Below are positions 41,428 to 61,635 of a stretch of 64,000 nucleotides of DNA, one piece after another (position 1 is the first letter of the stretch; each line of letters begins with the position of its first letter). The DNA lies in contig NZ_JAHLZY020000001.1 in the NCBI RefSeq assembly GCF_018967865.2, forward strand, positions 2,914,001-2,978,000, written 5' to 3'. A model generated the notes under the pieces. The model saw only the letters and a list, made by a program, of their open reading frames with translations. It had not been told where the DNA came from and made no database searches. The position numbers and the translations under genes were made by a program. The DNA comes from Hymenobacter siberiensis. GTDB taxonomy: Bacteria; Bacteroidota; Bacteroidia; Cytophagales; Hymenobacteraceae.

Positions 41428-43077
41428 TTGAAACGACGCGACTTTGTAGGACTATCCGGCCTGGCTGCCGGGGCCCTCTTCCTCCCCGGCTTTCCCAGCT
41501 TCGGCGGCACCCTCGTTGACCCCGCCCACCTGCTGGAGCCCGGCCTCGACCTCACCCAGAAAAAACGCCTTGCTGATGCGGCCCTGAACGCCGCCAAAGC
41601 CGCCGGCGCCAGCTACGCCGATGTGCGCATCGGGCGCTACCTCAACCAAAGCATTTTCACCCGCGAAAAGCAGGTGCAGAACATCGCCAGCACTGAGAGC
41701 TACGGCGTGGGCATTCGCGTGATTGCCAACGGCACCTGGGGCTTCGCGGCCACCAACGTCGTGACCGAGGCCAGCCTGGCCAAAGCCGCCCAGCTGGCCG
41801 TAGCCATCGCCAAGGCCAACGCCAAGGTGCAGAAAGAGAAGGTGTTGCTGGCCCCGCAGCAAGGCTACGGCGAGGTGAGCTGGAAAACGCCCATCCAGCA
41901 AAACGCCTTCGAAGTGCCGGTGGCGCAGAAAGTTGAATTGCTGCTGGCCGCTAACGCCAAGGCCCTCGACAACGGCGCCAGCTTCGTCAACTCCTCCCTG
42001 TTTCAGATTAACGAGCAGAAGTATTTTGCCAGCACCGACGGCTCCTACATCGACCAAGACGTGCACCGCATCTGGCCCACGTTTTCGGTTTCGGGGGTAG
42101 ACCGGGCCAGTGGCAAGTTTCGCAGCCGCGATGCCCTGAGCTCGCCCATGGGCATGGGCTACGAGTACCTCACGCCCAAGGCCGCCGATAAGATTGCGGG
42201 CGCCAGCGGCACCGGCCTCATCGGCTACCGCAACAGCTACGACATGCTGGAAGATGCCGCCCTGGCCGCCCGGCAAGTGAAGCAGAAGCTGACCGCCAAG
42301 TCGGTAACGCCGGGCAAGTACGACCTCGTGCTCGACCCCAACCACCTGGGCCTCACCATCCACGAGAGCGTGGGCCACCCGCTGGAGCTCGACCGCGTGC
42401 TGGGTTACGAGGCCAACTACGCGGGCACCAGCTTCGCCACCCTCGACTGGAAGGCCAAGGGCATTCCCTACGGCTCGAAGCTGGTGAACATTGTGGCCGA
42501 TAAGCTGCAGCCCGGCTCGCTGGGCGCAGTGGGCTACGACGATGAAGGCGTGAAAACCAAGCGCTGGGACCTCATTAAAGAAGGTACGCTGGTAGACTAC
42601 GAGAAAATCCGGGACCAGGCGCACATCGTGGGCCAGAAGGAATCGGACGGCTGCTGCTACGCCGACTCCTGGGACTCGGTTCAGTTCCAGCGAATGCCCA
42701 ACGTGAGCCTGCAGCCCGGCAAAGCCAAAATGAGCGTCGACGAGTTGATTAAGGACGTAGACAAGGGCGTGTACATTGCCGGGCGCGGCTCCTACTCCAT
42801 CGACCAGCAGCGCTACAACTTCCAGTTCGGTGGGCAGGTGTTCTACGCCATCGAAAAAGGCAAAATCACCGAGATGCTCGAAGACGTGGCCTATCAGGCC
42901 AACACCCAGGAATTCTGGAACTCCTGCGCCGCCATTTGCGACGAAAGCGACTACCGGCTGTTCGGGTCTTTCTTTGATGGCAAGGGCCAGCCCAGCCAGG
43001 TGTCGGCCGTAAGCCACGGCTCGGCCACCACGCGGTTTAATGGCGTGAACGTGATTAATACGGCCCGCAAGATTTAA
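41428..43077 (+). CDS. TldD-like metallopeptidase, copy 1, with Tat-like signal
   Basis: 549-aa TldD/PmbA-family protein. TldD is the catalytic half of the TldD/TldE heterodimeric protease that in E. coli trims microcin B17 precursor and CcdA. The Zn motif HESVGH gives His312, Glu313 and His317, and the later conserved Cys lies in FWNSCAAIC. The N-terminus MKRRDFVGLSGLAAGALFLP looks like a twin-arginine signal (RRxF then a weakly hydrophobic stretch), unlike cytosolic E. coli TldD. The start is TTG at 41428, supported by exact alignment with the ATG starts of copies 2 and 3. It is followed after 322 bp by its TldE partner. Export through Tat is inferred from sequence only. Confidence 0.9.
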   Translation: MKRRDFVGLSGLAAGALFLPGFPSFGGTLVDPAHLLEPGLDLTQKKRLADAALNAAKAAGASYADVRIGRYLNQSIFTREKQVQNIASTESYGVGIRVIANGTWGFAATNVVTEASLAKAAQLAVAIAKANAKVQKEKVLLAPQQGYGEVSWKTPIQQNAFEVPVAQKVELLLAANAKALDNGASFVNSSLFQINEQKYFASTDGSYIDQDVHRIWPTFSVSGVDRASGKFRSRDALSSPMGMGYEYLTPKAADKIAGASGTGLIGYRNSYDMLEDAALAARQVKQKLTAKSVTPGKYDLVLDPNHLGLTIHESVGHPLELDRVLGYEANYAGTSFATLDWKAKGIPYGSKLVNIVADKLQPGSLGAVGYDDEGVKTKRWDLIKEGTLVDYEKIRDQAHIVGQKESDGCCYADSWDSVQFQRMPNVSLQPGKAKMSVDELIKDVDKGVYIAGRGSYSIDQQRYNFQFGGQVFYAIEKGKITEMLEDVAYQANTQEFWNSCAAICDESDYRLFGSFFDGKGQPSQVSAVSHGSATTRFNGVNVINTARKI

Positions 43078-43080
43078 TTA

Positions 43081-43393
43081 ATGTGGGGAATGTGTTGAAT
43101 GTGGGGAATGTGAAAATGGACCGCTCAGGACGCTACAAGTAAGCGGCCGTAGCCGCCACGCTTTGCTCCTATCTCATGCATCATTCTCAATTTCATCCCA
43201 CTGAAGCTGTTTAGAAAGTCCCCGAACGGTCATGCAGAGCGCAGCGCAGCATCTTGCTCGCATCGTCAGGCCCGTTCAACGATGCGAGTAAGATGCTGCG
43301 CTCTGCATGACCGTTTGAGGACCTTTTGTGACTTTCTGAATAACTCCACTATTCCATTTCCACATTTTCCACATTCAACACATTTTCACATCT
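43081..43393. repeat. Nested inverted repeats between tldD-1 and tldE-1
   Basis: Outer arms (family E) are GAATGTGTTGAATGTGGGGA-type on the left (43081-43122) and its CCACATT-rich complement on the right (43348-43393). Inside, at 43213-43337, is a long hairpin: AGAAAGTC at the left, then ACGGTCATGCAGAGCGCAGC and GCTCGCATCGT, all mirrored on the right with minor differences. The layering suggests one element inserted into another. The remainder, 43123-43212, holds nothing recognised. Confidence 0.82.
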
Positions 43394-43399
43394 GAAAAC

Positions 43400-44719
43400 A
43401 TGGCCCTGCTCTCCCAATCCGAAGCCCAGACCATCCTCAAAAAAGTCCTCAGCTTCAGCACCGCCGACGAGTGCGAGGCCACCCTCACGGGCACCAGCGG
43501 CGGCAACGTGCGCTCGGCCCGCAACTCCATCAGCACGGCGGGCGCAGCCGAGAACGTGGCGCTGGCGGTGCAGTCGCGCTTTGGCAAGCGCAGCGGCACC
43601 GCCACCTGCAACGAGTTTGATGAGGCCTCGCTGCGCCGCTGCGTGCAGCGGGCCGAGGAAATTGCCCGCCTCGCTCCCGAAAGCCCGGAGTACGTGCCGC
43701 TGCTCGGCCCGCAGACGTATCTGGCATCGCCAAACTCGTTTGCGGCGCGCACGGCTGCCATCACGCCCGACTACCGGGCCGAGCAGATTGGGGCCAGCAT
43801 GGCCCTGTGCGACCAGAAGAAACTTAGCTCAGCCGGCTTCTTTAATGACTCGTCGGGCTTCGTGGCCAAGCGCAACTCCAAGGGCCTGGAGGCTTACCAA
43901 CCGGTGAGCAGCGTCGACTTTTCGATTTCGGTGCGCACGCCCGATGGCACCGGCTCGGGCTACGCCATTGCCAACTACACCGATTTGGCCCGGTTCGACG
44001 CGGCCCGCCTCACGCGGGTGGCGGCCGACAAGGCGGCTTCGTCGGTGAATGCCAAGGCCATTGAGCCGGGCAAATACACCGTGATTCTGGAGCCGGCCGC
44101 GGCCATCGACCTGCTCAATAACATGATGGGGGCCATGGACGCCCGTAACGCCGACGAAGGCCGCAGCTTCCTGAGCAAGAAGGGCGGCGGCAATAAGAAG
44201 GGCGAAAAGGTCTTCGACGAGCGGGTGACCATCTACTCCGACCCTACCCACCCCGACGTGCCCGACCTGACCTTCAGCGACGACGGCCGCCCGCAGCAGA
44301 AAGTGACGTGGATAGACAAAGGCGTGGTGAAAAATCTCTACACCTCGCGCTTCTGGGCCCAGAAAGCCGGCATCCCCGACATTCCGCCCCCCGGCGGCTG
44401 GATTATGGAAGGCGGCACCCAAAGCACCGCCGACCTCATCAAAGGCACCGCCAAAGGCATTCTCGTCACGCGCCTCTACTACATCCGGGCCGTCGACCCG
44501 CAGACGCTGCTCTACACCGGCCTGACGCGCGACGGGACGTTCTACATCGAAAACGGGCAGATTAAATTCCCGGTGAAAAATTTCCGCTTCAACGAAAGCC
44601 CGGTGATTATGCTCAACAACCTGGAGGCGCTGGGCAAGCCCGTGCGCCTGAACGGCAGCCTGGTGCCACCCATGAAAATCCGCGACTTCACCTTCACCAG
44701 CCTGTCGGACGCGGTGTAG
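43400..44719 (+). CDS. TldE/PmbA-like partner, copy 1
   Basis: 439 aa, the non-metal-binding half expected to pair with TldD copy 1. It begins MALLSQSEAQTILKKVLSFS with no signal peptide or Tat motif. It lacks the HExxxH motif and instead reads GKYTVILEPAAAIDLL at the equivalent place. Family landmarks include RNSISTAGAAENVALAVQSR, FVAKRNSKGLEAYQ, EGRSFLSKKGGGNKKGEKVF and GWIMEGGTQSTADLIKGTAK. Length fits PmbA (about 450 aa). If TldD is exported by Tat, this subunit could only follow by co-export as a folded complex; otherwise the pair would be split between compartments. Confidence 0.9.
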   Translation: MALLSQSEAQTILKKVLSFSTADECEATLTGTSGGNVRSARNSISTAGAAENVALAVQSRFGKRSGTATCNEFDEASLRRCVQRAEEIARLAPESPEYVPLLGPQTYLASPNSFAARTAAITPDYRAEQIGASMALCDQKKLSSAGFFNDSSGFVAKRNSKGLEAYQPVSSVDFSISVRTPDGTGSGYAIANYTDLARFDAARLTRVAADKAASSVNAKAIEPGKYTVILEPAAAIDLLNNMMGAMDARNADEGRSFLSKKGGGNKKGEKVFDERVTIYSDPTHPDVPDLTFSDDGRPQQKVTWIDKGVVKNLYTSRFWAQKAGIPDIPPPGGWIMEGGTQSTADLIKGTAKGILVTRLYYIRAVDPQTLLYTGLTRDGTFYIENGQIKFPVKNFRFNESPVIMLNNLEALGKPVRLNGSLVPPMKIRDFTFTSLSDAV

Positions 44720-44810: not shown

Positions 44811-46460
44811 ATGAAAAGACGTGACTTTGTAGGACTAACCGGCCTGGCCGCCGGCGCCCTTTTCCTGCCCAGCCTGCCCGGCTTCGGCCATTCGCTGGTA
44901 GACCCCGCCCGCCTGCTGGAGCCCGGCGCCGATGTAGCCATGAAAAAGCGCCTCGCCGATGCCGGCCTGAACGCCGCCAAAGCCGCCGGCGCCAGCTACG
45001 CCGACGTACGCATTGGCCGCTACCTCAACCAAGGCATCTTCACCCGCGAAAAGCAGGTGCAGAACATTGCCAGCACCGAGAGCTACGGCGTGGGTATCCG
45101 CGTGATTGCCAACGGCACCTGGGGCTTCGCCTCCACCAACAACGTGACCGAGGCGGGCATTGCCAAAGCCGCCCAGCTGGCCGTGCAGATTGCCAAGGCC
45201 AACTCGAAGGTGCAGAAGGAAAAGGTGCAGCTGGCCCCGCAGCAGGGCTACGGCGAGGTGAGCTGGAAAGCGCCCATTCAGCAGAATGCGTTTGAGGTGC
45301 CCATCAAGGACAAGGTGGATTTGCTGCTGGGCGTGAACGCCAAAGCCCTGGATATGGGCGTGTCGTTCATCAACTCGGTGCTGTTTCAGGTGAACGAGCA
45401 GAAGTATTTTGCCAGCACCGACGGCTCCTACATCGACCAGGACATTCACCGGATTTACCCCACGTTCGGCGTCACGGCCATCGACCGGGCCAGCGGCAAG
45501 TTCCGCTCGCGCCAGGCCATGAGCTCGCCCGTGGGCATGGGTTACGAGTACCTCACGCCCAAAGCCGCCGATAAAATGGCCGGCCCCACCGGCTCCGACA
45601 TCATCGGCTACAAGTACAGCTACGACATGCTGGAAGACGTGGCCCTGGCCGCCAAGCAGGTGAAGCAGAAGCTGACCTGTAAGTCGGTGACGCCCGGCAA
45701 GTACGACCTCGTGCTCGACCCGCACCACCTGGGCCTCACCATCCACGAAAGCGTGGGCCACCCGCTGGAGCTCGACCGCGTGCTGGGCTACGAAGCTAAC
45801 TTCGCCGGAACCTCGTTTGCCACCCTGGAGTGGAAGGCCAAGGGCATTCCCTACGGCTCGAAAGTGGTGAACATTGTGGCCGATAAGGTGACGCCCAACA
45901 CCTTGGGCGCGGTGGGCTACGACGACGAAGGCGTGAAAACCAAGCGCTGGGACCTCATCAAGGACGGTACGCTGGTGGACTACGAGAAAATCCGGGACCA
46001 AGCGCACATGGTGGGCCAGAAGGAATCGGACGGCTGCTGCTACTCGCAGTCGTGGCAGGATGTGCAGTTCCAGCGCATGCCCAACGTGAGCCTGCAGCCC
46101 GGCAAAGCCAAAATGAGCGTGGATGAAATGGTGAGCAAGGTCGATAAGGGCATCTACATCGCCGGCAACGGCTCGTTCTCCATCGACCAGCAGCGCTACA
46201 ACTTCCAGTTCGGCGGGCAGGTGTTCTACGCCATCGAAAAAGGCAAAATCACCGAGATGCTCGAAGACGTGGCCTACCAGGCCAACACCCAGGAATTCTG
46301 GAACTCCTGCGCTGGCTCATGCGACGAAAGTGACTTCCGTTTCTTCGGCGCTTTCAACGACGGCAAGGGCCAGCCCTCGCAGAGCTCGGCCGTGAGCCAC
46401 GGCTCGGCCACCACGCGCTTCAATGGCGTGAACGTGATAAATACGGCGCGGAAAATCTAG
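44811..46460 (+). CDS. TldD-like metallopeptidase, copy 2, with Tat-like signal
   Basis: 549 aa, collinear with copy 1 without gaps and visibly its closest relative. It retains MKRRDFVGLTGLAAGALFLP, HESVGHPLELDR and the FWNSCAGSC cysteine. Differences cluster in variable surface-like stretches, for example FINSVLFQVNEQKYF and AGPTGSDIIGYKYSYDML, while the catalytic region is unchanged, suggesting retention under selection, not decay. It starts with ATG rather than the TTG of copy 1, and is preceded 9 bp upstream by a family A inverted repeat. The partner TldE copy 2 follows after a 506-bp gap that carries a broken four-helix-bundle gene. Confidence 0.9.
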   Translation: MKRRDFVGLTGLAAGALFLPSLPGFGHSLVDPARLLEPGADVAMKKRLADAGLNAAKAAGASYADVRIGRYLNQGIFTREKQVQNIASTESYGVGIRVIANGTWGFASTNNVTEAGIAKAAQLAVQIAKANSKVQKEKVQLAPQQGYGEVSWKAPIQQNAFEVPIKDKVDLLLGVNAKALDMGVSFINSVLFQVNEQKYFASTDGSYIDQDIHRIYPTFGVTAIDRASGKFRSRQAMSSPVGMGYEYLTPKAADKMAGPTGSDIIGYKYSYDMLEDVALAAKQVKQKLTCKSVTPGKYDLVLDPHHLGLTIHESVGHPLELDRVLGYEANFAGTSFATLEWKAKGIPYGSKVVNIVADKVTPNTLGAVGYDDEGVKTKRWDLIKDGTLVDYEKIRDQAHMVGQKESDGCCYSQSWQDVQFQRMPNVSLQPGKAKMSVDEMVSKVDKGIYIAGNGSFSIDQQRYNFQFGGQVFYAIEKGKITEMLEDVAYQANTQEFWNSCAGSCDESDFRFFGAFNDGKGQPSQSSAVSHGSATTRFNGVNVINTARKI

Positions 46461-46462
46461 AA

Positions 46463-46962: not shown

Positions 46963-46966
46963 CATC

Positions 46967-48301
46967 ATGGCCATTCTCTCCAAAGACGAAGCCCAGACAA
47001 TCCTAAAAAAGGTCCTCAGTTTCAGCACCGCCGATGAGTGCGATGCCACGCTCAATGGCAACATTAGCGGCAACGTGCGCTCGGCCCGCAACTCCATCAG
47101 CACGGCCGGGGCCAGCGATAACGTGTCGCTGGCCGTGGAAAGCCGCTTTGGCAAGCGCGCCGGCGTAGCCACCTGCAACGAGTTCGACGAAGCCACCCTG
47201 CGCCGCTGCGTGCAGCGGGCCGAGGAAATTGCCCGCCTCGCCCCCGAGAGCCCGGAGTACATGCCGCTGCTGGGGCCGCAGACATACCTGGATGGCAACC
47301 GCTCCTACGCCGCCGCCACCGCCGCCATCGACCCCGACTACCGGGCCGCGCAAATCGGGGCCAGCATGGCGCTCTGCGACCAGAAAAAGCTGAGCTCGGC
47401 GGGCTTCCTCGACGATTCGCACGGCTTCGTGGCCAAGCGCAACTCCAAGGGCCTGGAGGCCTACCAGCGCACGTCCAACGTGACGTTTTCGGTGACGGTG
47501 CGCACGCCCGACGGCACCGGCTCGGGCTACGCCTCGGGCGATTACATCGACTCAAGCAAGATGGACGCGGCCCGCTTCACCAAAGTGGCCGCCGACAAAG
47601 CTGCTGCTTCCATGAAGGCACGGGCCATTGAGCCGGGCAAGTACACCGTGATTATGGAGCCCAATGCCCTGCTCTCGAACGTGGACACCTCGCTCATCGG
47701 CGCGCTCATGGGTGCCCTCGATGCCCGCAACGCCGACGAGGGCCGCAGCTTCCTCAGCAAGAAGGGCGGCGGCAACCGCAAGGGCGAAAAGCTGTTTGAT
47801 GAACGGGTTACCATCTACTCCGACCCGCTGAACCCGGAAATCAGCGACCTCACTTTCAGCGGCGACGGCCGCCCGCTGCAGCGCACCACCTGGATTGACA
47901 AGGGCGTGGTGAAAAACCTGTACGCCTCGCGCTACTGGGCCCAGAAAGCCGGCATCCCCGACCTGCCCCGCCCCAACGGCTGGATTATGGAAGGCGGCAC
48001 CCAAAGCACCGCCGACCTCATCAAAGGCACCGCCAAGGGCATTCTGGTGACGCGCCTGTGGTACATCCGCCCCGTCGACCCGCAGACGCTGCTCTTCACC
48101 GGCCTCACCCGCGACGGCACGTTCTACATCGAAAACGGCCAAATCAAGTTCCCCATCAAGAACTTCCGCTTCAACGAAAGCCCGGTCATCATGCTCAACA
48201 ACCTGGAAGCCATCGGTAAGCCGGTACGGTTAAACGGGAATTTGGTACCGCCGCTCAAGATTCGGGACTTCACGTTCACGAGCCTGTCGGACGCAGTATA
48301 A
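46967..48301 (+). CDS. TldE/PmbA-like partner, copy 2
   Basis: 444 aa, closely similar to copy 1 with a few extra residues in the region after GKYTVIMEPNALLSNVDTSL. It has no signal peptide (MAILSKDEAQTILKKVLSFS) and no HExxxH. Conserved blocks such as EGRSFLSKKGGGNRKGEKLF and GWIMEGGTQSTADL are intact. The gene is closed by a strong terminator at 48361-48398, the clearest transcription stop inside the 20-kb array. That separates the first two TldD/TldE pairs from the third and from the MoxR module. Confidence 0.9.
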   Translation: MAILSKDEAQTILKKVLSFSTADECDATLNGNISGNVRSARNSISTAGASDNVSLAVESRFGKRAGVATCNEFDEATLRRCVQRAEEIARLAPESPEYMPLLGPQTYLDGNRSYAAATAAIDPDYRAAQIGASMALCDQKKLSSAGFLDDSHGFVAKRNSKGLEAYQRTSNVTFSVTVRTPDGTGSGYASGDYIDSSKMDAARFTKVAADKAAASMKARAIEPGKYTVIMEPNALLSNVDTSLIGALMGALDARNADEGRSFLSKKGGGNRKGEKLFDERVTIYSDPLNPEISDLTFSGDGRPLQRTTWIDKGVVKNLYASRYWAQKAGIPDLPRPNGWIMEGGTQSTADLIKGTAKGILVTRLWYIRPVDPQTLLFTGLTRDGTFYIENGQIKFPIKNFRFNESPVIMLNNLEAIGKPVRLNGNLVPPLKIRDFTFTSLSDAV

Positions 48302-48333: not shown

Positions 48334-48360
48334 ATTGACGTAATAGAAGCACTTTTTTGA

Positions 48361-48398
48361 AAGCCACCAGTCAACCTCGACTGGTGGCTTTTTTATTT
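48361..48398 (+). terminator. Strong rho-independent terminator after tldE-2
   Basis: AAGCCACCAGTC / GACTGGTGGCTT, a perfect 12-bp stem with a 6-nt loop, followed by a TTTTATTT tract and preceded by TTTTTTGA. Classic intrinsic terminator form. Confidence 0.88.
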
Positions 48399-48446: not shown

Positions 48447-48476
48447 TTGGGTACTTACCCCTTACGCCTATCTTGC
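48447..48476 (+). promoter_or_regulatory. Putative promoter for the CarboxypepD_reg-like gene
   Basis: TTG (48447-48449), a 19-nt spacer, then TATCTTGC (48469-48476), close to the Bacteroidota TTG / TAnnTTTG pattern. It lies after the terminator and 24 bp before the ATG at 48500. Confidence 0.45.
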
Positions 48477-48499
48477 GGCTTCATTTCCTACTTCCTGCA

Positions 48500-49699
48500 A
48501 TGAAGCTGACTTTATTAGCTGGCCTGCTACTGGCCGTTATCATTCGTCCGGCCGCCGCGCAATCGCGCCTCACCGGCAAAATTCTCGATGCCGCCACCGG
48601 CCAGCCCATACCCTACGCCAGCATTTCGGTGCTGAGCACTACGGCCGGCACCACCAGCAACGCGGAGGGCGAGTTTGAGCTGAAAGCCGCGCTACCGGGC
48701 CGGCTGGTGATATCGGAGCTGGGCCACCGGCGCGATACGGTGGCAGTAGCCGCCGCCACCGCACCGCTGCTGGTGCGGCTGCAACCGGCGTCGGTACTGC
48801 TGCCCGAGGTGCAAGTGGGCAGCTACCTCGGCGATTTGATTGCGCAAGCCTACCGCCAGTTGCGCCGCACCACCGCTAAAAAAATGTATGGCCAGGCCTT
48901 TTATCGGCAAATTACCCGCATTGCCAACGATGCCACCGAAGTGCAGGAAATGGTGTGGGACGCTGCCACTACCAATGCAGGCATGGATGGCAGCGCCATC
49001 GTTACTGGGCGCTTCGCGAAGAAGATGAAGGCGCAAATAAGCTTCAACAACTTCTCCGTTTTTACCAAAAGGTTTGGCTTTAATATGAAGGACGACAGCC
49101 TAACACAGCGCGGAATCCTGGGGCTGAATACTGCCAGGTTCTACACACTATCGCTACTGGGCGTGACGCAGAGTGAGGGTCAGCAACTGGTCGAAATCGG
49201 TTTTGAGAGCAAGCCGGGGCTGGCACCGCTTACCGCGAAAGGAACTTTGGTTATTAACGAAACTACCCGGCAAGTACTACACCTGCGGTTTGAAACGCCC
49301 GACCTGGTCAACGTCAAGACCAATAGCTTGGTTAGCTTGGTGGTGAAGCTCAAGGACCAGCACTCGGTGTTTGAAATGGATTTTCAGCCGGCTCCAAATG
49401 CAGCCGTCCTCACTTACATCAAGGTCGATTATCGAGCATCTTTGGCTGTACCACTGCAACGCAACGTCGCCATTCAGGCTTCTTCTTTCACGTACTTCTA
49501 CAACAGCCGCGCCACCCCCGATGCCAGCGTGACCTACGCCCCTGCCAAGGGCGGCGAAGTCGATTTGGCACTCATCAAGCAAACTACTTACGACCCCGCT
49601 TTCTGGCAAAACAACGCCGTGGTGAAACGCACCCCACTCGAAGAACAGGTGATGAAATCCTTCGAGCAGAAGGGCGCTTTCGGCACTATGTTGCCGTAG
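48500..49699 (+). CDS. Secreted CarboxypepD_reg-like domain protein
   Basis: 399 aa from the ATG at 48500, which starts the signal peptide MKLTLLAGLLLAVIIRPAAA; a longer frame begins 27 bp earlier. A carboxypeptidase-regulatory-like beta-sandwich follows at about residues 23-105 (LTGKILDAATGQPIPYASIS, GTTSNAEGEFELKA). A roughly 290-residue domain of mixed beta structure then runs to the C-terminus, as in many DUF5686-like or uncharacterised Bacteroidota envelope proteins. It lies between TldD/TldE pairs 2 and 3, behind its own putative promoter and after a terminator. It could be a periplasmic or outer-membrane substrate or adaptor of the peptidases, but nothing in the sequence proves this. 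Confidence 0.8.
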   Translation: MKLTLLAGLLLAVIIRPAAAQSRLTGKILDAATGQPIPYASISVLSTTAGTTSNAEGEFELKAALPGRLVISELGHRRDTVAVAAATAPLLVRLQPASVLLPEVQVGSYLGDLIAQAYRQLRRTTAKKMYGQAFYRQITRIANDATEVQEMVWDAATTNAGMDGSAIVTGRFAKKMKAQISFNNFSVFTKRFGFNMKDDSLTQRGILGLNTARFYTLSLLGVTQSEGQQLVEIGFESKPGLAPLTAKGTLVINETTRQVLHLRFETPDLVNVKTNSLVSLVVKLKDQHSVFEMDFQPAPNAAVLTYIKVDYRASLAVPLQRNVAIQASSFTYFYNSRATPDASVTYAPAKGGEVDLALIKQTTYDPAFWQNNAVVKRTPLEEQVMKSFEQKGAFGTMLP

Positions 49700-51610: not shown

Positions 51611-52936
51611 ATGGCCATTCTCTCCAAAGACGACGCCCAGACGCTCCTCAAAAAAGTCCTAAGCTACAGCACCGCCGACGAGTGCGAAGCTTCCCTGAAC
51701 GGACGCACCACCGGCAACATCCGCTACGCCCGCAACAGCGTGAGCACGGCCGGCGCCCAGGATTCCGTATCGCTGGCTGTGGAAAGCCGGTTCGGCAAGC
51801 GCAGCGGCATTGCCACCTGCAACGAGTTCGACGACGCTACGCTGCGCCGCTGCGTGCAGCGGGCCGAGGAAATAGCCCGCCTCGCCCCCGAAAGCCCCGA
51901 ATACGTGCCCCTGCTCGGCCCGCAAACCTACCTGAGCCCGCCCTCCACCGCCACCACGCTACTCACGGCCACCACCCGCGCCCAGGCCGCAGCCGACAGC
52001 ATGGCCCTGTGCGCTGCCAATAACCTAACGTCGGCTGGCTTTCTCGATGGCGGCACCCGGTTTGTGGCCAAGCGCAACTCCAAGGGCCTGGAGGCTTACC
52101 AGCAGTCCACCAACACCAACTTTTCGGTAACGGTGCGCACCGCCGACGGCCGCGGCTCGGGCTACGCCATTGCCGACGTGACGGACCCCGCCAGGCTCAA
52201 CGCCAAAGCCCTCACCCAGCGCGCCGCCGATAAGGCCCTGGGCTCGGTGAATGCCAAGGCCATCGAGCCGGGCAAGTACACCGTCATTCTGGAGCCGGCC
52301 GCCCTCATGGCCGGCGACGACCTCTCGCTGCTGGGGGGAATGATATTCGGGATGGGCGCCCGCGAGGCCGACGAAGGCCGCAGCTTCCTAAGCAAAAAGG
52401 GCGGCGGCAACCGCAAGGGCGAAAAGCTGTTCGATGACCGGATAACCATCTACTCCGACCCGCTGAATGCCGAGGTGCCCGGCAATGCCTTCGACGGCGA
52501 TGGCCTGCCCACCAAACGCCAGACCTGGGTTGAGAAAGGCGTGGTAAAAAATCTGTTTTACAGCCGCTTCTGGGCCGAGAAAAACAAGGTCGCCGCCACG
52601 GCTTTCCCCAACGGCTTCATCATGGCGGGCGGCACCCAGAGCACCGCCGAGCTCATCAAAAGTACCGCTAAAGGCATTCTGGTCACGCGCTTGTGGTACA
52701 TCCGAGAAGTCGACCCGCAGACGCTGCTCTACACCGGCCTGACACGCGACGGAACGTTCTACATCGAAAACGGAAAGATAAAATTCCCCATCAAGAACCT
52801 ACGCTTCAATGAAAGCCCGATTATCATGCTCAATAATATTGAGGCCATCGGCCGGCCCCAGCGCCTGGCCGGCTGCCTCATTCCCCCGCTGAAAATTCGC
52901 GATTTCACGTTCACGAGCTTGTCGGACGCTATTTAG
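51611..52936 (+). CDS. TldE/PmbA-like partner, copy 3
   Basis: 441 aa, again without signal or HExxxH. It differs from copies 1 and 2 in PPSTATTLLTATTRAQAAAD after the conserved LLGPQTYL block, in AGDDLSLLGGMIFGMGAREA at the position equivalent to the metal site of TldD, and in FPNGFIMAGGTQSTAELIKS. All family blocks are present and the frame is intact. Its divergence parallels that of TldD-3, as expected if each pair has evolved as a unit. The DUF4159 gene follows after the family A repeat. Confidence 0.9.
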   Translation: MAILSKDDAQTLLKKVLSYSTADECEASLNGRTTGNIRYARNSVSTAGAQDSVSLAVESRFGKRSGIATCNEFDDATLRRCVQRAEEIARLAPESPEYVPLLGPQTYLSPPSTATTLLTATTRAQAAADSMALCAANNLTSAGFLDGGTRFVAKRNSKGLEAYQQSTNTNFSVTVRTADGRGSGYAIADVTDPARLNAKALTQRAADKALGSVNAKAIEPGKYTVILEPAALMAGDDLSLLGGMIFGMGAREADEGRSFLSKKGGGNRKGEKLFDDRITIYSDPLNAEVPGNAFDGDGLPTKRQTWVEKGVVKNLFYSRFWAEKNKVAATAFPNGFIMAGGTQSTAELIKSTAKGILVTRLWYIREVDPQTLLYTGLTRDGTFYIENGKIKFPIKNLRFNESPIIMLNNIEAIGRPQRLAGCLIPPLKIRDFTFTSLSDAI

Positions 52937-52940
52937 AATT

Positions 52941-53042
52941 GTAGCGTGGACTCTGCGAGTCCGCGCGTGAGCGTAGCGAGCATTGGACAAGGATTCCGGA
53001 TGCTCGCTACGCTCGCTCGCGGACTCGCAGAGTCCACGCTAC
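52941..53042. repeat. Family A inverted repeat with extended arms
   Basis: GTAGCGTGGACTCTGCGAGT at the left and ACTCGCAGAGTCCACGCTAC at the right (to 53042) with further pairing through GAGCGTAGCGAGCAT. It begins 5 bp after the tldE-3 stop and separates the TldD/TldE array from the DUF4159/MoxR module. Confidence 0.9.
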
Positions 53043-53890: not shown

Positions 53891-54864
<974 letters not shown>

Positions 54865-54868
<4 letters not shown>

Positions 54869-54938
54869 CGCGGGCTTTTAGTCCGCGAGTACCATAACTT
54901 TTTTATCGTTGAACTCGCGGACTAAAAGCCCGCGCTAC
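54865..54938. repeat. Family A perfect inverted repeat overlapping MoxR stop and abutting DUF58 start
   Basis: Arms 54865-54890 and 54913-54938 (26 bp) are exact inverted copies around a 22-nt A/T-rich spacer. The left arm contains the TAG stop of the MoxR gene and the right arm ends 3 bp before the ATG of the DUF58 gene. Any transcript through the operon must carry this hairpin. Confidence 0.92.
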
Positions 54939-54941
54939 TAC

Positions 54942-55814
54942 ATGCTCACTCCCGAACTCCTGCACGGCCTGCGCAACCTCTCCCTCGCCGCCCGGCAGGC
55001 GGCCGAGGGCTTCCTCAACGGCGCGCACGCCAGCCGGCGGCACGGCGCGGGCATGGAGTTCAACCAGTACCGCCCCTACCAGCCCGGCGACGACCTGCGC
55101 CGCCTCGACTGGCGCCTGGCCGCCCGCTCGGACCGCTACTACCTGCGCGAGTCGGAAATTGATACCAGCCTGACCGTACACCTGCTGCTCGACGCCAGTG
55201 CCAGCATGAACCACCGCGACGATAACGGCCTCAGCAAGCTCGACTACGCCCGGTTACTGCTCGGCGCGCTCGCTTACATCGCCACGCAGCAAGGCGATGC
55301 CGTGGGCCTGAGCATCCTCAGTCCCGCCGGCCTGCGCCACCTCGCGCCCCGCGCTGATGCCCGCCAACTGCCCCGCCTCTACCACGCCCTCGAAACGGCC
55401 GAAGCTGCCGGCCGCTTCCCCGCGCCCGAAACGCTGGCTCCTCTCACGGCCCGCCGCCAGCGCGCCCTCACGGTGTGCGTGAGCGACTTGTATGAGGAAG
55501 GCCAGGAAATCAATGCCTTGCTTACCCGCCTGCGCGCCACCAGCGGCGACGTACTATTACTGCACCTAATGGCGCACAACGAACTCAAATTCAACTACGA
55601 GGGCGCTGTCACTTTCCGCGACTTAGAAACCGGCCAAACCCTGCAAATCGACGCCGCTACCCAACGGACAGCCTACCAACAGCAGTTGCAAAACTGGCTG
55701 CGCGACACGGCCCAAAACGCCCGGCGGCAGGGCTTCGACTATCATTTACTGGATACTTCGCAGCCACTCGATGCGGCGATGCGGGAGTTTCTAAGGCGGC
55801 GCGGGAATAGTTAA
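54942..55814 (+). CDS. DUF58 domain protein with vWA-type MIDAS
   Basis: 290 aa from the ATG at 54942 (MLTPELLHGLRNLSLAARQA). The upstream frame is repeat DNA. The DUF58 signature GMEFNQYRPYQPGDDLRRLD with WRLAARSDRYYLRESE is followed by a von Willebrand factor A-like domain whose metal-ion site DASAS (DxSxS) is intact (LLLDASASMNHRDD). DUF58 proteins pair with MoxR ATPases in many phyla. No transmembrane segment is seen, so it is probably the cytoplasmic partner linking MoxR to the membrane proteins encoded next. Confidence 0.92.
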   Translation: MLTPELLHGLRNLSLAARQAAEGFLNGAHASRRHGAGMEFNQYRPYQPGDDLRRLDWRLAARSDRYYLRESEIDTSLTVHLLLDASASMNHRDDNGLSKLDYARLLLGALAYIATQQGDAVGLSILSPAGLRHLAPRADARQLPRLYHALETAEAAGRFPAPETLAPLTARRQRALTVCVSDLYEEGQEINALLTRLRATSGDVLLLHLMAHNELKFNYEGAVTFRDLETGQTLQIDAATQRTAYQQQLQNWLRDTAQNARRQGFDYHLLDTSQPLDAAMREFLRRRGNS

Positions 55815-55914: not shown

Positions 55915-57546
55915 TTGTTCGCCCTTCTTCACCCTGCCGCCCTGCTGGCCCTCACGGGCCTGCTGGTGCCGGTAGCCATTCATCTCTGGAACCGCCGGCC
56001 CGCCCGTGAAGTGGCGGTGGGCAGCCTGCGCTGGCTAGCCGCCGGTGCCAACCGCCGCCTGCGCAACCTGAAGCTGGAGCAGCTCTGGCTGCTGCTGTTG
56101 CGCGCGGCACTGTTGGCGGTGCTGGCCGTGGCGGTGGCCGGGCCGGTGTGGCGCACGGCCCGGCCCATCAGCCGGGGCGTGGTGCTGCTGAGCGCCGAGG
56201 CGGCCCGACTGCCAACGCTGGCCGGCATCAAGCTCACTATCGACTCGCTGCGCCGGAAGGGATATGCGCTGCGCTGGCTATCGGCGGGCTTCCCCCGGGT
56301 GCCGGGTGCGGCGTGGCGGGCGGTGGCTGCGGGTCGAGCCAGCGCCGCCGTCGATTCGGCAGCGGCACGGCAGCCCTCCGGCCCGGCCTGGGCGCGGGTG
56401 CAGCAGGCGGCGGCCACCTTTGCGGGCCAGCCGGTTTTTGTGGTCACCAGCGCGGCGCTGCGCGACTTTGGCGGCCGCCACGCGCCGTTGCCAGCCGCCG
56501 TGAGCTGGCAGGCCCTGCCCGATACCACTACCAGCGCGTGGCTGGCGGCCGCCGGGTTGGTGGGCGACAGCCTGCACCTGCTGGTTGGCCACAGCAACGA
56601 AGCCCGAACCACCTACCGCCCGCAACGCTCACTGCTGCCGCCCACCGGCCAGATAGTTCGGCTGGCTGGACTTGCCCCGTTGCGCCTGCAGCCGGATACA
56701 ACCGGCAGCGGAAGCCTGCGGCTGGTTCCGGCCAACGGCGCTACTTCTGCTTCCACCCCGGCCATTGAGGTAAGGAAATCGCCGCTTACCATTGACCTAT
56801 ACGCCACGCCGGAATACACCGCCGATGCCCGCTACTGGGAGGCGGCAGTACGCGCCGCCGCCGTAGGGCTGCCCGTGGCGCTGCAGCTACGCCGGGTTAC
56901 GGACCGGCCCCGGCAGCTGCAGGCCGACTGGACATGCTGGCTTTCCGACGAAGCATTGCCCCGAAACTGGCAACAAACAGTGCAGCAAGGAGCTACTATC
57001 TGGCAGGAGGCCGCCGGCCCGGGCGTGCCCGACACGGCGAGCTTCGCCGCGGCTGATGCCTCGGGCTCAGCCGGCCTGGTGTTTCGGCGCGGTGCCCGCC
57101 CACCGGCTTTGGGGAGCGCAACGGTGTGGGCCGATGGCCGGGGCCGCCCGGTGCTTTCGCGGCGGATGCTGGGCCGTGGGGCAACTTATCAGCTGCACAC
57201 ACGCCTCGCACCGCCTTGGAGTGAGCTGGCCGACGACCCGCAGATGCCGGCCCGGCTACTGAAGCTGCTGCAGCCCGCCGCCCCCGATGAAGCTGCGGCC
57301 GTCCTCTACCATCCCCGCAACCCGGGCCTGGAGCAGCAGCTGAGTCGTTTCGACCATCGTGCCCTCGACCCCGCCCAGCTGACCTCGGCCCCTCGTATGC
57401 AGCCCACCGCCGCTCCAATTCGGGCGGCAGGCGAGCGCACGACTGATTTGCGGCCCTGGCTGGTACTGGCGGCCGGGCTGTTGTTTTTGCTGGAGCGCTG
57501 GCTGGCAGGGCGGCGGGCCGGGAGCACATTGCCTACTTCAATATGA
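55915..57546 (+). CDS. BatA-type N-terminal domain membrane protein
   Basis: 543 aa, starting at TTG 55915 (read as MFALLHPAALLALTGLLVPV). The first ~80 residues form the BatA N-terminal membrane module: AALLALTGLLVPVAIHLWNR, then a second TM with LLLRAALLAVLAVAVAGPVW. A central region of about 400 residues is predicted to be exposed and contains no DxSxS metal site, so a vWA-like function is not evident. A C-terminal TM (WLVLAAGLLFLLERWLAGRR) ends it. The stop overlaps the next ATG (ATGA at 57543-57546), showing translational coupling to the DUF4175-type protein. By analogy with Bat proteins it probably works with MoxR and DUF58 at the inner membrane. Confidence 0.85.
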   Translation: MFALLHPAALLALTGLLVPVAIHLWNRRPAREVAVGSLRWLAAGANRRLRNLKLEQLWLLLLRAALLAVLAVAVAGPVWRTARPISRGVVLLSAEAARLPTLAGIKLTIDSLRRKGYALRWLSAGFPRVPGAAWRAVAAGRASAAVDSAAARQPSGPAWARVQQAAATFAGQPVFVVTSAALRDFGGRHAPLPAAVSWQALPDTTTSAWLAAAGLVGDSLHLLVGHSNEARTTYRPQRSLLPPTGQIVRLAGLAPLRLQPDTTGSGSLRLVPANGATSASTPAIEVRKSPLTIDLYATPEYTADARYWEAAVRAAAVGLPVALQLRRVTDRPRQLQADWTCWLSDEALPRNWQQTVQQGATIWQEAAGPGVPDTASFAAADASGSAGLVFRRGARPPALGSATVWADGRGRPVLSRRMLGRGATYQLHTRLAPPWSELADDPQMPARLLKLLQPAAPDEAAAVLYHPRNPGLEQQLSRFDHRALDPAQLTSAPRMQPTAAPIRAAGERTTDLRPWLVLAAGLLFLLERWLAGRRAGSTLPTSI

Positions 57547-59816
57547 CGCAGCCCACGGTTACTTCCATTGAAACAAGCCGGTTGCCGGAGCAGGGCAAGT
57601 CCCAGGCGCAGCTTCAGGCGGTCAGGAACAGCTATGCCGGCCGCTATGCCGGCGCAGGGCTACAAGTCCTGCTGGCCGCCGGTGTCCTGTTGGCTGGGTT
57701 AGTACATCACTGGCCAGCCGCGCAGCCACTTTGGATAGCGCTGGCGGTATTAGGCTTGCTGACGGCCTCGGCGTGGTGGGCGTGGCCTCTGCGTCAGCTG
57801 GACTGCGCAGTTATAGCGCAACGGCTCGACCGGCAATTTCCTGAACTACAGGACAGCACCGGCCTGCTGCTGCAGGACCCGGCTACCCTGACTTTTCTTG
57901 GCCAACTGCAATTCAAGCGGGTAGCCGGGCAGCTAGGGCAGCTAACTGCTGAAGGGCCGGGACTACTCCCATTTTCTTTTCGGAAGCCGTTGCTGCTGAG
58001 TGCTGGACTATTGCTGGGTGCGGCGTTATGCTACCTGCTGCCCATCAGCCAGCCGGCCCAACCCATACCGGCGGCAGTCAGCATGCGGTTTTCGCCCCCG
58101 GCTCCGGCAGCGGCCGGGCAGGCCGCACCGCCGCGTATCAGCGAAACAAAACTGCTGGTCACGCCCCCCGCATACACCCGACTGGCGGCTTTTGCGCCGA
58201 CGCAGCCTTCGTTTCAGTGCCCGCAGGAGGCGCGGGTGCGCTGGCAGGTGCGGGTGAGCGGCGATGGCAAATCGGCAGCGCCGATGCTGGAACTGGGGCG
58301 CCAGCGGATTCGCCTACAGCCGGTGGCCGGGCAGGCGGGCTGGTTTTTTACCGAGCAAACGCTGATGGCTTCCACGCTGTACCGGCTGCGCTACGCGGGC
58401 ACGTTGTCTGATGATTACGCCATTGATGTGCGGCCCGACCTCGCGCCCGTGCTGCGCATTCAAACCCCGAAATCCTACACGCTGGTGGCGGCCATCGGCC
58501 AGCGGCCGGAAGTCTCCATCCGCGCCACCGTGCGCGATGACTACGGTCTGAGCCGGGCCGAGCTGGTGATAACCGTGGCGCAGGGCCAGGGCGAGGCGGT
58601 GAAGTTCCACGAGGTGCGGCGCGATTTGAGCGCGGGCCTGGGCGGGCCGCAGGCCACGCTGGGCAGCCTGCTCAACCTGCCCAAACTGGGCCTGACTTAC
58701 GGCGACGAGCTCTACTTCTACCTCACGGCGCGCGACAACCACGGCCATACTACTCGTACTGATTCTTACCTCGTGCAGTGGCAGGATACCGCCGTGGCCG
58801 ATGGGGCACTCGACCTGGGCATGGGTGTAAAAGTGGCTCCCGCCTACTTCCGCAGCCAGCGTCAGATTATCATCGACACCGAAAAGCTGCTGGCCGAAAA
58901 GCCGAAGCTTGATGCCGCCACCGTGGCCAACCGGGCCAACAACCTCGGCTTCGACCAGCAGACGCTGCGCCTGCGCTACGGCAAGTTTCTGGGCGAAGAG
59001 TCGGAGGCCGGGATTGGGGTGGAAGCTGGCCCGCACGCACCCACGGCCGAAGACGAGGACGCACCCGCCTCCCCCACCGCAGAAGCCCCCGGGCACGACG
59101 ACCACGACCACGGCGGCGCGCCGGTTTCGCCCTCCAAAGCCTCGCCCACCGCCGAAACCGATGCCCTGATGGACCCCTACATCCACAAGCACGACGACTC
59201 CGAAACCGCCGACTTCCTGGAGCCCGCCGTGAAGGCCAAGCTCCACGCCGTGCTCGACCAGATGTGGGCCGCCGAGCTGCGCCTGCGCACCGGCCAGCTG
59301 GCGGCGGCCCGGCCCTTCGAATACCGCGCCCTGCGCCTGCTGAAGGAAGTGCAGCAGCAGACCCGGGCCTACGTAAAAAAAGCCGGCTTCACCCCGCCGC
59401 CCATGCCCGAAGCCACCCTGCGCCTCACCGGCGAGCTGGCCGGGGCCGCCGTGCCCCAGCGCCAGCAAACCTTGCCCGCCCCGGCTACTCAGCCGGCCAT
59501 CCGCGCCGCCCTGCGCTGGCTGGCCGCGGCCGACAACGACCAGCCCCCCCGCCCCGCCGATGCCGTGCTGCTTGACCAGGCCGGCACCGTACTATCCGGC
59601 GCGGCCCTCACCCGCCCGGGCTTCTACCTGCCGGCATTACGGGCCCTACGCGAGCTGGGAGCCGACGTGCGCGCCGGCCGCCCCACCCGTGCAGCCAGCC
59701 GCGCACCTGTAGCCCGCGCCCTCACCGACCTGCTGGCCGTGCCCACTCCCGCACCCGCCGCCCCGCCCGCTGCCGACCGGCTGGCGCGGCGTTATTTCCA
59801 GGACTTAAGCCGTTAG
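57543..59816 (+). CDS. DUF4175-like membrane protein
   Basis: 757 aa. Three TM segments lie near the N-terminus: LQVLLAAGVLLAGLVHHW, LWIALAVLGLLTASAWWAWP and PLLLSAGLLLGAALCYLLPI. A large exposed region follows, with Ig-like repeats (RVRWQVRVSGDGKSAAPMLE, SIRATVRDDYGLSRAELVIT), as in DUF4175 proteins. Further on is a His/Asp-rich stretch (GHDDHDHGGAPVSP, IHKHDDSE) and a long amphipathic helical region with RPFEYRALRLLKEVQQQTRA. The His-rich part might bind metal, in keeping with the MoxR/vWA theme, but that is speculative. It overlaps the previous gene by four bases and is followed four bases later by the 604-aa gene. Confidence 0.78.
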   Translation: MTQPTVTSIETSRLPEQGKSQAQLQAVRNSYAGRYAGAGLQVLLAAGVLLAGLVHHWPAAQPLWIALAVLGLLTASAWWAWPLRQLDCAVIAQRLDRQFPELQDSTGLLLQDPATLTFLGQLQFKRVAGQLGQLTAEGPGLLPFSFRKPLLLSAGLLLGAALCYLLPISQPAQPIPAAVSMRFSPPAPAAAGQAAPPRISETKLLVTPPAYTRLAAFAPTQPSFQCPQEARVRWQVRVSGDGKSAAPMLELGRQRIRLQPVAGQAGWFFTEQTLMASTLYRLRYAGTLSDDYAIDVRPDLAPVLRIQTPKSYTLVAAIGQRPEVSIRATVRDDYGLSRAELVITVAQGQGEAVKFHEVRRDLSAGLGGPQATLGSLLNLPKLGLTYGDELYFYLTARDNHGHTTRTDSYLVQWQDTAVADGALDLGMGVKVAPAYFRSQRQIIIDTEKLLAEKPKLDAATVANRANNLGFDQQTLRLRYGKFLGEESEAGIGVEAGPHAPTAEDEDAPASPTAEAPGHDDHDHGGAPVSPSKASPTAETDALMDPYIHKHDDSETADFLEPAVKAKLHAVLDQMWAAELRLRTGQLAAARPFEYRALRLLKEVQQQTRAYVKKAGFTPPPMPEATLRLTGELAGAAVPQRQQTLPAPATQPAIRAALRWLAAADNDQPPRPADAVLLDQAGTVLSGAALTRPGFYLPALRALRELGADVRAGRPTRAASRAPVARALTDLLAVPTPAPAAPPAADRLARRYFQDLSR

Positions 59817-59820
59817 CCCG

Positions 59821-61635
59821 TTGCCCATTTTAACTCCGAATCCGGTTCTTTACTTTGGCCTGCTGGCGGGCTGCCTGCTGCTGGTCTTCGGGCTGCTAGT
59901 GCTGGCCTGGCAGCGGCCCCGTCGGCGGCAGCGGATGGCCAGGGTGCTGGCCAGCCTGGCCGCCGTTGCAGCGCTGTGGCTCAGCGCTTTTCCGCCGCTG
60001 CGCCACCTGACCGCCATTCGTACCGAGGCCATTCTACTCACCCCCGGCTACTCGCCCGATACCCTGCGGCAGCTCCGCCGGCAGTTGGGTGCAGGCACAT
60101 CGGTCTGGACCTATGCCGACGCCGACCCGCCTGCCAACGCCCGGCCGCTGGCCAGCCTGCTCACGCTGGCCGAGCAACGGCCGGCGCTGCATCGGCTGCA
60201 CATTCTGGGCCACGGGCTACCGGCCGCTGAACTGGCGCTGCTGAATTCGCTGGCGGTACGGCTGCACCCAGGGGCACCGTTTGAGGGCTTCGCCACCGCT
60301 TTTTGGCCGGCAACATCATCATTGGGTGAAATGCTGCGGCTGGAAGGCACGGTGGTAGCACCCGGCCGGCCAGCCGCCGCGTGGGTGGTGCTGTACGCTG
60401 CTGGCACCGGGCGCGATTCGGTGCGGTTGCCAGCCGGTGGCGGGCCTTTCCGGCTGCGCTACCGGCCCAAAGCCGCCGGGCTGGCCACCTACGAATTGCA
60501 GCTACGCCGACCGGGCCAGCCGCTGCTGGCGGAGCCGGTGCCGGTCGAAATCACCACGCCCGCGCTGCCGGCCGTGCTGCTGCTCACCGCCACGCCTTCC
60601 TTCGAGTTCAAGTTTTTGAAGAACTACCTGGCCGAAGCCCATTACCCAGTGGCCCTACGCACGAGCGTAAGCCGGGGCCTGGTCCAGACTGATTTCGTGA
60701 ACCTGCCGGCCCAGTCGCTCGACCGCCTCACGCCCGCCCTGCTGGCCCGCTATGCCGTAGTGGTGGCCGATGCTGCCACGCTGGGCGCCCTTTCCGCCGC
60801 CGAAACCCAGGCCCTGCAAGCGGCCTTACGCGCCGGCCGGTTGGGCATCGTCACACTGGCTGAAGCCGCGCCCCTGCCCCGCACCGCGCCCGCCCGCGCC
60901 GATTTCACGGTGCAACCCCGGCCAGCGAATGTCGCCACCCAGCCCCTCACCTGGCCTGACGCGCCCGGCGAGGCCCGCGCCGCGCTGCCGGCCCAGTTGC
61001 AAGCCAACCCGACGCTGCGGGCACTCATCATCGGGCCGCGCCAGCTGCTGCTGGCTGCCAGCCGACGGGTGGGCATGGGCTTTGCGGTGGTGTCGGTAGT
61101 ACCCGAAACGTTTCACTGGGGCCTCCAGGGGCATACCGCCGTCTACGCCTCCTACTGGAACCAGCTGCTGACGGCCGCTGTGCCGCCGGCCCCGGCCGCC
61201 GCTACCTGGCATGCGGGCAGCCGTTGGCCCCGGCCGGCACAGCCCCTCACGCTGCATCTGGCAGCCGCTTTTCCCACTACCCTGCCCACGGCGGCAGCGC
61301 TGGCCGGCGGCCCGGCGGTGCGCCTGGCCCTGCGCCAAGACACCCGCCTGCCCGAGTGGAGCACAGCCCGGTTTTGGCCTGACACTGCGGGCTGGCACCA
61401 GGTGCGCGGGCCGGGCCGCATCATTCACAATTTTTACGTGTACCCGCCCACAACCTGGCTGGGGCCGGAGTACCAGGAGCGCCAGCAGGCCGTGGCGCAA
61501 CTGAGCAACGAAACCCAAGCTCCGAAAGCCGCTGAAACGACTCAGGCTACGGTGACGGAGCCGTGGCCGGCGGGGTGGTTCTTTGGGTTGTTTCTGCTGG
61601 CCGCCGGGTATCTGTGGCTGGAGGAGAAATTGTAG
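59821..61635 (+). CDS. 604-aa membrane protein of the MoxR/BatA module (GATase-like domain)
   Basis: Starts at TTG 59821, four bases after the preceding stop, so translation is probably coupled. Two N-terminal TM segments (VLYFGLLAGCLLLVFGLLVL and LASLAAVAALWLSAF) and one C-terminal TM (WFFGLFLLAAGYLWLEEKL) flank an exposed region. Residues about 250-370 look like the class I glutamine-amidotransferase-like fold seen in BatA-cluster proteins (LLLTATPSFEFKFLKNYLAE, VVVADAATLGALSAAETQAL), without a clear catalytic Cys. The C-terminal portion has an Ig-like segment. No function is known. It ends the co-oriented array; a gap of about 310 bp follows. Confidence 0.72.
   Translation: MPILTPNPVLYFGLLAGCLLLVFGLLVLAWQRPRRRQRMARVLASLAAVAALWLSAFPPLRHLTAIRTEAILLTPGYSPDTLRQLRRQLGAGTSVWTYADADPPANARPLASLLTLAEQRPALHRLHILGHGLPAAELALLNSLAVRLHPGAPFEGFATAFWPATSSLGEMLRLEGTVVAPGRPAAAWVVLYAAGTGRDSVRLPAGGGPFRLRYRPKAAGLATYELQLRRPGQPLLAEPVPVEITTPALPAVLLLTATPSFEFKFLKNYLAEAHYPVALRTSVSRGLVQTDFVNLPAQSLDRLTPALLARYAVVVADAATLGALSAAETQALQAALRAGRLGIVTLAEAAPLPRTAPARADFTVQPRPANVATQPLTWPDAPGEARAALPAQLQANPTLRALIIGPRQLLLAASRRVGMGFAVVSVVPETFHWGLQGHTAVYASYWNQLLTAAVPPAPAAATWHAGSRWPRPAQPLTLHLAAAFPTTLPTAAALAGGPAVRLALRQDTRLPEWSTARFWPDTAGWHQVRGPGRIIHNFYVYPPTTWLGPEYQERQQAVAQLSNETQAPKAAETTQATVTEPWPAGWFFGLFLLAAGYLWLEEKL

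Follow-up and report, generated by a model that had tools for sequence, protein, structure and literature searches.

Why should three pairs of TldD/TldE protease genes lie in one array with a set of membrane-protein genes around a MoxR ATPase? The question is raised by a 64,000-nucleotide stretch of Hymenobacter siberiensis DNA (contig NZ_JAHLZY020000001.1, forward strand), here called the window, whose internal positions serve as coordinates. Open reading frames (ORFs) and a Pfam scan place the three pairs, a CarboxypepD_reg-like gene and the genes of a DUF4159 protein, a MoxR ATPase, a DUF58 protein, a BatA-type protein, a DUF4175-type protein and a 604-residue protein on the plus strand only (Table 1), the co-oriented arrangement that an earlier note on this DNA had described. 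TldD and TldE are best known from Escherichia coli, where they are leader peptidases that lack an export signal. We find that their association with the MoxR module is real and conserved, and proteases and module very probably form one functional unit. Our best explanation, to which we assign a probability of about 0.45, is a conserved envelope system in which the module acts as a dedicated engine that assembles or activates exported TldD/TldE or feeds substrate to it.

Loci were chosen by their DUF4159 protein alone, blind to TldD, and the best 80 of at least 596 confirmed stretches were taken with up to 10 kb on either side, less at contig ends; the closest DUF4159 relatives among the matches listed belong to Hymenobacter (97% identical). 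The earlier note had proposed a functional link that would fall if the proteases and the module were rarely neighbours in relatives. They are common neighbours: TldD occurs in 73 of the 80 loci and TldE in 68, together with MoxR (77), DUF58 (76), the BatA-type protein (73), DUF4175 (73) and the 604-residue protein (68). Two architectures were distinguished. In the first (48 loci, from Hymenobacter, Pontibacter, Rufibacter, Adhaeribacter and the like), TldE lies upstream of DUF4159 and MoxR on the same strand; in the second (24 loci, from Pedobacter, Mucilaginibacter, Chitinophaga and the like), DUF4159 is divergent from a run of MoxR, DUF58, BatA, DUF4175, 604-residue protein and TldD, with TldE next where the stretch extends far enough. 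The other eight comprise L037, which lacks MoxR, and seven loci without TldD (L026, L042, L064, L065, L071, L074 and L076), three of which (L064, L074 and L076) break off at the contig end towards which a divergent run would continue. In some relatives tldD, tldE, the DUF4159 gene and moxR are co-directional and separated by small gaps or none, and in L093, L099 and L100 the genes are consecutive on one strand, mostly with fewer than 100 bases between open frames, counted stop to stop (L099 has gaps of 183 and 261 bases).

The association is also seen across genomes. Among 198 genomes of the phylum, the profile of the 604-residue protein, used as the marker of the module, matched 18 and that of TldD 24 (20 above 500 bits and four at 33-70 bits). 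A strong TldD is present in all 18 marker genomes and in two genomes without the marker (G004 and G164); the other 178 hold neither, four of them giving the weak, distant TldD matches. Within 247 genomes of the class, 13 hold the marker and the same 13 a strong TldD, three more showing weak distant TldD matches only; the two samples overlap, with 11 of the 13 positives shared, and both new ones (G356 and G408) are linked. Fisher's test on the 198 genomes gives 1.2e-23, a value that ignores kinship among genomes and overstates the case because these are related and not independent. The case is better made by gene sets that come and go together within genera and that persist when not adjacent. 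Each of the genera g2, g3, g75 and g20 includes species holding both gene sets and species holding neither. Marker and TldD lie at most 20 kb apart in 13 of the 18 genomes, and G190 brings the linked total to 14, since its 604-residue match is 70 kb from TldD but its TldD/TldE genes adjoin those of DUF4159, MoxR, DUF58, BatA and DUF4175. Four genomes of family f27 keep both gene sets apart from each other; one of these (G133) has TldD, TldE, DUF4159 and MoxR together and DUF58, BatA, DUF4175 and the 604-residue protein on another contig. A purely historical neighbourhood, devoid of functional meaning, would draw on the origin of most loci in related families, whose gene order is partly inherited, but the existence of two gene orders, the joint presence and absence within the four genera and the co-occurrence without adjacency in f27 make it very improbable.

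The proteases themselves are recognizable members of their family. All six window proteins reach the Pfam cut-offs of the three PmbA_TldD domains, the weakest at 21 against 20.9 bits. Over 102 untruncated TldDs (99 from the loci and three from the window), HExxxH is present in every protein, and it occurs in none of 104 locus TldEs and none of the three window TldEs; Glu320 and Asp322 are invariant, and Asp517-Gly-Lys519 is found in 101, the last having a gap there. According to Ghilarov et al. (PMC5810440), the third metal ligand of E. coli TldD is Cys454, Lys456 is linked to both Glu270 and Asp272, and Asp substitutes as third ligand in some relatives. From the alignment of the D/C-G-K motif we infer that Asp517 is the third metal ligand here, with His312 and His317. 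The same paper describes the E. coli proteins as active only as a heterodimer, in leader removal and peptide degradation, and its passages on TldD/TldE mention neither periplasm nor signal peptide (PMC5810440). The window proteins are distant from the E. coli type: TldD-1 falls far short of the NCBIfam equivalog cut-offs (145 against 635 and 87 against 513 bits), and the three TldDs score 87, 83 and 71 bits with PRK10735, the E. coli-type TldD equivalog, against a cut-off of 513. An AlphaFold2 model of TldD, weak in its catalytic part (mean predicted local distance difference test score of 66), suggests the same fold through a Foldseek match to 5njc (E 8e-29, about 21% identity). Cys409 and Cys500 are conserved in TldD and could form a disulfide.

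The number of pairs is not essential, given that one TldD copy is found in 10 of the 20 strong-TldD genomes of the 198-genome sample, two or three being found in the other 10. FastTree trees of Hymenobacteraceae loci were read without branch support, the TldE tree outside its outgroup part. TldE copies at the same position with respect to DUF4159 mostly fall together; TldD shows the same among the close relatives of the window, while the copies nearest to DUF4159 in L020, L029, L031, L032, L034 and L036 join the middle copies, placements that are perhaps due to conversion. Given this positional grouping, the window's three pairs did not arise in a recent local event. Surplus TldDs without a TldE partner occur in L015, L021, L022, L024, L030 and L037.

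A feature that changes the expected place of these enzymes, and that the earlier note had overlooked, is found at the start of TldD. The window TldDs begin with (M/L)KRRDFVGL[ST]GLAAGALFLP, with KRRDF in all three, and start 28 residues ahead of the alignment start of the E. coli-type TldD profile. In the 102 TldDs, R3 and F6 are universal, position 4 is R in 85, K in 15 and S in two, and small residues suited to signal peptidase I stand at -3/-1 in 99; by hydropathy, 95 of 99 have no 19-residue stretch at the transmembrane threshold. A twin-arginine motif, a weakly hydrophobic region and a cleavage-like site together mark TldD as a predicted substrate of twin-arginine translocation (Tat). Hydropathy revealed no hydrophobic segment in any of 87 untruncated locus TldEs, and in 12 further family TldEs the profile begins at the first Met, with no signal (the TldD-like L114, L119, L120 and L121, longer and secreted-looking, were kept out of these counts). 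TatC has one match in the H. siberiensis genome (2.4e-61), and its presence is not discriminating since it is found in 197 of the 198 phylum genomes. Tat exports folded proteins. A Tat-type signal on TldD and none on TldE suggest that the two are probably exported folded, TldE hitch-hiking. Since the E. coli proteins have activity only in the heterodimer, it is simplest to suppose that the folded pair leaves the cytosol as a unit, and we regard this as likely. Partners without a signal (HybC, PaoB and PaoC) can be carried along in this way, according to PMC4273604. A TldD that stays in the cytosol and works there with the MoxR engine, its N-terminus being vestigial or a membrane tether, would agree with the missing signal of TldE in the 87 and 12 copies and with the missing second Arg in 17 of the 102 signals. 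We consider this quite unlikely, because R3, F6 and the signal-peptidase-like site are kept across families and the hydrophobic region is too weak for a usual anchor.

Export is not special to this system. Three distant Cys-type TldDs (L111, L112 and L113), from genomes without the module, carry Tat-like signals; the Tat-type TldD is thus wider than the array, and TldD export may be a general trait of the phylum. The idea that the Asp-for-Cys ligand swap marks export into an oxidizing periplasm was rejected on these three proteins, the distant TldDs of G180, G225, G258 and G284 lying outside this reading. By eye, the TldEs of the same three genomes show no signal. Start codons, set by motif or alignment, are TTG in 65, ATG in 32 and GTG in two of the 99 untruncated locus TldDs, and ATG in all 87 TldEs, possibly a matter of translational tuning. 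G164 and G160 also encode extra PF19289 proteins of about 600 residues, perhaps another exported TldD-like type; the two that were read (L114 and L119) combine HExxxH with a secretion signal of ordinary appearance.

The module combines cytosolic-looking and membrane components. An AAA_3 domain, Walker motifs and an adjoining von Willebrand factor A (vWA)-type DUF58 protein with a metal ion-dependent adhesion site (MIDAS) identify the ATPase as a MoxR protein. The DxSxS motif of DUF58, which the earlier note had reported as intact, is indeed so: D95 and S99 are invariant in 24 aligned rows and S97 is kept in at least 90%. DUF4159 shows no hydrophobic segment by hydropathy in any of the 80 locus homologs, and MoxR, DUF58 and DUF4159 all look cytosolic. 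Large domains of BatA, DUF4175 and the 604-residue protein are predicted to lie in the periplasm, the topology of BatA and the 604-residue protein being counted from two N-terminal segments only, as the window's own proteins missed the rule for a C-terminal segment. The BatA-type protein has a positively charged loop between its first and second transmembrane segments, and a profile search at an E threshold of 0.01, which did not extend to a structural comparison for a diverged vWA fold, found only the BatA N-terminal domain and no Pfam vWA domain in 26 of 26 BatA-type proteins. Two further features picked out in the earlier note hold as well: the His/Asp-rich stretch of the DUF4175-type protein is conserved in the alignment, and residues 247-459 of the 604-residue protein have a GATase1/ThuA-like fold. 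Whole-chain Foldseek matches of the 604-residue model (template modelling, or TM, scores of about 0.1-0.2 over the query) were not used, nor was a CARDB-domain match to 3idu (TM-score 0.61 over the target). AdvA of Acinetobacter is described as a DUF4175-domain cell-division protein (PMC7481262); we see no connection to the array.

How might these parts work together? TldD would fold around its metal and pair with TldE in the cytosol, and the Tat translocase would export the folded heterodimer by means of the TldD signal, TldE riding along. MoxR, DUF58 and DUF4159 would make up an ATP-driven engine in the cytosol, with BatA, DUF4175 and the 604-residue protein as its coupling, and this engine would assemble or activate the exported protease or supply it with substrate; the protease, in turn, would trim unfolded polypeptides. 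Given that TldD/TldE are probably periplasmic and the engine is cytosolic-looking, its action must either precede export or reach across the membrane by way of the three membrane proteins. Direct action of the module on TldD/TldE is possible, at rather less than even odds. Its boldest form, an energized periplasmic protease in which the motor gates or feeds Tat-exported TldD/TldE across the inner membrane through BatA, DUF4175 and the GATase-like protein, is improbable as matters stand; if true, it would be an ATP-dependent peptide-degrading machine for the ATP-free periplasm.

Acting before export, MoxR, DUF58 and DUF4159 could instead be a cytosolic maturation chaperone that loads metal or assembles TldD/TldE, with the membrane proteins as mere anchors. 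This is unlikely on balance, and it overlaps with our best explanation, so that the odds of the two are not exclusive. MoxR-vWA pairs are reported to mature or activate neighbouring client enzymes, including the metalloenzymes methanol dehydrogenase and NO reductase (PMC3893208 and PMC12657314). Tat cargo is folded, and G133 keeps DUF4159 and MoxR beside TldD and TldE; yet an anchor would hardly seem to need three membrane proteins that carry large predicted periplasmic domains and a conserved His/Asp-rich stretch, and we know of no MoxR requirement of the E. coli proteins.

Proteases and membrane module might also never touch and handle the same exported peptide or envelope product one after the other. 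The coupling drawn here rests on co-occurrence and gene order, TldD/TldE are known to remove leaders and to degrade peptides (PMC5810440), G004 and G164 imply that the pair can exist without the module, and envelope genes lie nearby in some lineages. Unassigned ORFs of at least 110 residues in the 80 loci, shorter ones being outside the clustering, yielded no gene group common to both architectures, which argues against a shared product, but a short precursor could escape this size limit; we hold successive action to be unlikely. The largest groups (20, 11 and 11 loci) each belong to a single lineage. In the 20-locus group, four of the four members scanned are OMP_b-brl_2 outer-membrane beta-barrel proteins and not antisense frames. 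Their gene follows the DUF4159-nearest TldE on the opposite strand in Hymenobacter loci (for example L010, L012, L013, L014, L015 and L019), and it is not counted as a system part because the window has only a 187-bp gap without it at this place and the groups of other lineages lack it. Other scanned groups were a lytic-transglycosylase/SPOR gene and a methyltransferase, both of Pontibacter loci, and the rest matched no Pfam family.

Several observations weigh against an engine dedicated to exported TldD/TldE, besides the kinship of the genomes and the non-adjacency in f27. The fetched stretches of L026 and L042 hold the module without a TldD, and G125 has its TldD and TldE on separate contigs. 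G004 and G164 possess Asp-type TldD and TldE with Tat-like signals and no marker. The RK and RS variants (15 and two of the 102 TldDs) may export poorly, Tat-like signals also occur on the Cys-type TldDs of module-less genomes, and a distant TldD-like protein of G011 (L106) has no such signal. Finally, kinship of copies by position is clean for TldE and mixed for TldD. The functional link first proposed for this locus is well supported by neighbourhood, operon-like order and co-occurrence, and its picture needs the export signal of TldD added.

Table 1. Features of the array in the window and the evidence for each.
Feature	Position	Strand	Evidence and remarks
TldD-1	41428..43077	+	TTG start, N-terminal signal of Tat type, HESVGH, third-ligand position occupied by Asp; Pfam PF19289/PF01523/PF19290, translation, motif columns
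TldE-1	43400..44719	+	No signal peptide, no HExxxH; Pfam, translation, hydropathy, motif search
TldD-2	44811..46460	+	Tat-type signal MKRRDFVGLTGLAAGALFLPSLPGFG; Pfam, translation, motif columns
TldE-2	46967..48301	+	No signal peptide, no HExxxH; Pfam, translation, hydropathy, motif search
Intrinsic terminator 3' of tldE-2	48359..48392	+	14-bp stem, T run; -24.4 kcal/mol, z -7.6
CarboxypepD_reg-like secreted protein	48473..49699	+	Pfam PF13715
TldD-3	49802..51451	+	Tat-type signal; Pfam, translation, motif columns
TldE-3	51611..52936	+	No signal peptide, no HExxxH; Pfam, translation, hydropathy, motif search
Long hairpin of two REP-like palindromes, gap between tldE-3 and DUF4159	52948..53035	+	-97 kcal/mol for 52937-53060
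DUF4159 protein, 207 aa	53124..53747	+	Pfam PF13709, E 1.4e-57; no signal or transmembrane segment
MoxR AAA+ ATPase	53891..54868	+	PF07726, E 5.7e-62 (207.8 bits), PF17863; Walker-A-like GVPGLAKT and LADE in translation
DUF58 vWA-like protein	54909..55814	+	PF01882; MIDAS DASAS
BatA-type membrane protein	55915..57546	+	PF07584, TIGR02226; large domain predicted periplasmic
DUF4175-type membrane protein	57543..59816	+	PF13779, E 1.2e-12; His/Asp-rich stretch HKHD, three transmembrane segments
604-aa membrane protein	59821..61635	+	GATase1/ThuA-like domain; large part predicted periplasmic; no Pfam family

The strong terminator that had been noticed after tldE-2 is confirmed, and it makes a separate transcript for pairs 1 and 2 plausible in this window; the strong hairpin between tldE-3 and the DUF4159 gene means that pair 3 need not share the module's transcript here either. 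Repetitive extragenic palindromic (REP)-like palindromes of the form GGACT..AGTCC number ten in the window, six of them forming three inverted pairs between array genes that fold into very stable hairpins (44731/44782, 49710/49763 and 52948/53021), the others lying at 27064, 41153, 48312 and 63315. The gap between tldD-2 and tldE-2 (46461-46966) holds what by eye looks like a disrupted TIGR02436 gene, of a four-helix-bundle family; in L027, L044 and L049 intact members sit between tldD and tldE, as if the gene often lands there. A homolog of the CarboxypepD_reg-like gene occurs in three of the 80 loci, and its product is probably not a regular component of the system. Beyond the array, in a minus-strand ORF (62007-63242), an N-terminal piece of a pectinesterase is joined with a pectate lyase domain, and a different frame offers a C-terminal reading that resembles the family; the ORF looks chimeric and broken. 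No tRNA, and no RNA family at gathering threshold, was found within the window. A defence-system reading was rejected when PADLOC, run on eight array proteins, gave a weak REase_II match to MoxR as its sole match. A profile search of the genome itself found zero PF19289 (TldD/TldE) matches beyond the array, and four strong MoxR-type and two BatA-type matches with the array members included. The second DUF4159 gene of this genome (L102, C1:2144000-2162000) adjoins a bacteriophytochrome-like histidine kinase, away from TldD/TldE.

To our knowledge, the clients of many MoxR modules have not been identified. A co-inherited TldD/TldE pair with an export signal on one subunit offers a concrete client and a cellular location for both, and an engine working across the membrane would provide a route to power periplasmic proteolysis. 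Our literature search, with subscription papers outside its scope, found no paper joining TldD and MoxR in this sense, none linking TldD to 'Tat signal' (PMC11508158 names both TldD and twin-arginine) and none on DUF4159. The parts are known; their combination is a new variant and adds a testable client for a MoxR module.

Comparison with known systems shows where the variant lies. With E. coli TldD/TldE (PmbA) the proteases share the three PmbA_TldD domains, HExxxH in TldD only, a paired TldE, the fold match to 5njc and the conserved active-site Lys with its Glu/Asp partners; they differ in Asp-Gly-Lys in place of Cys454-Gly-Lys456, in the Tat-type signal on TldD, in up to three pairs, in the linkage to a MoxR module and in an identity of about 21% (structural alignment). 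The module resembles the Bat (Bacteroides aerotolerance) operon in its MoxR, DUF58 and BatA-type double-anchor proteins, but here the last is without a Pfam vWA domain, and DUF4159, DUF4175 and the 604-residue protein replace further Bat genes. As in MoxR-vWA maturation systems (MoxR/methanol dehydrogenase, NorQ/NorD, CbbQ/CbbO and RavA/ViaA), an AAA+ MoxR and a vWA-type partner stand beside the gene of a metalloenzyme client; here, however, the putative client is a protease with an export signal, and three membrane proteins are added. Like the Tat hitch-hiker complexes HybO/HybC and PaoABC, TldD/TldE combine one subunit bearing a signal with a partner lacking it, but the passenger in this case is a protease and not a redox enzyme, and its export is a prediction from sequence.

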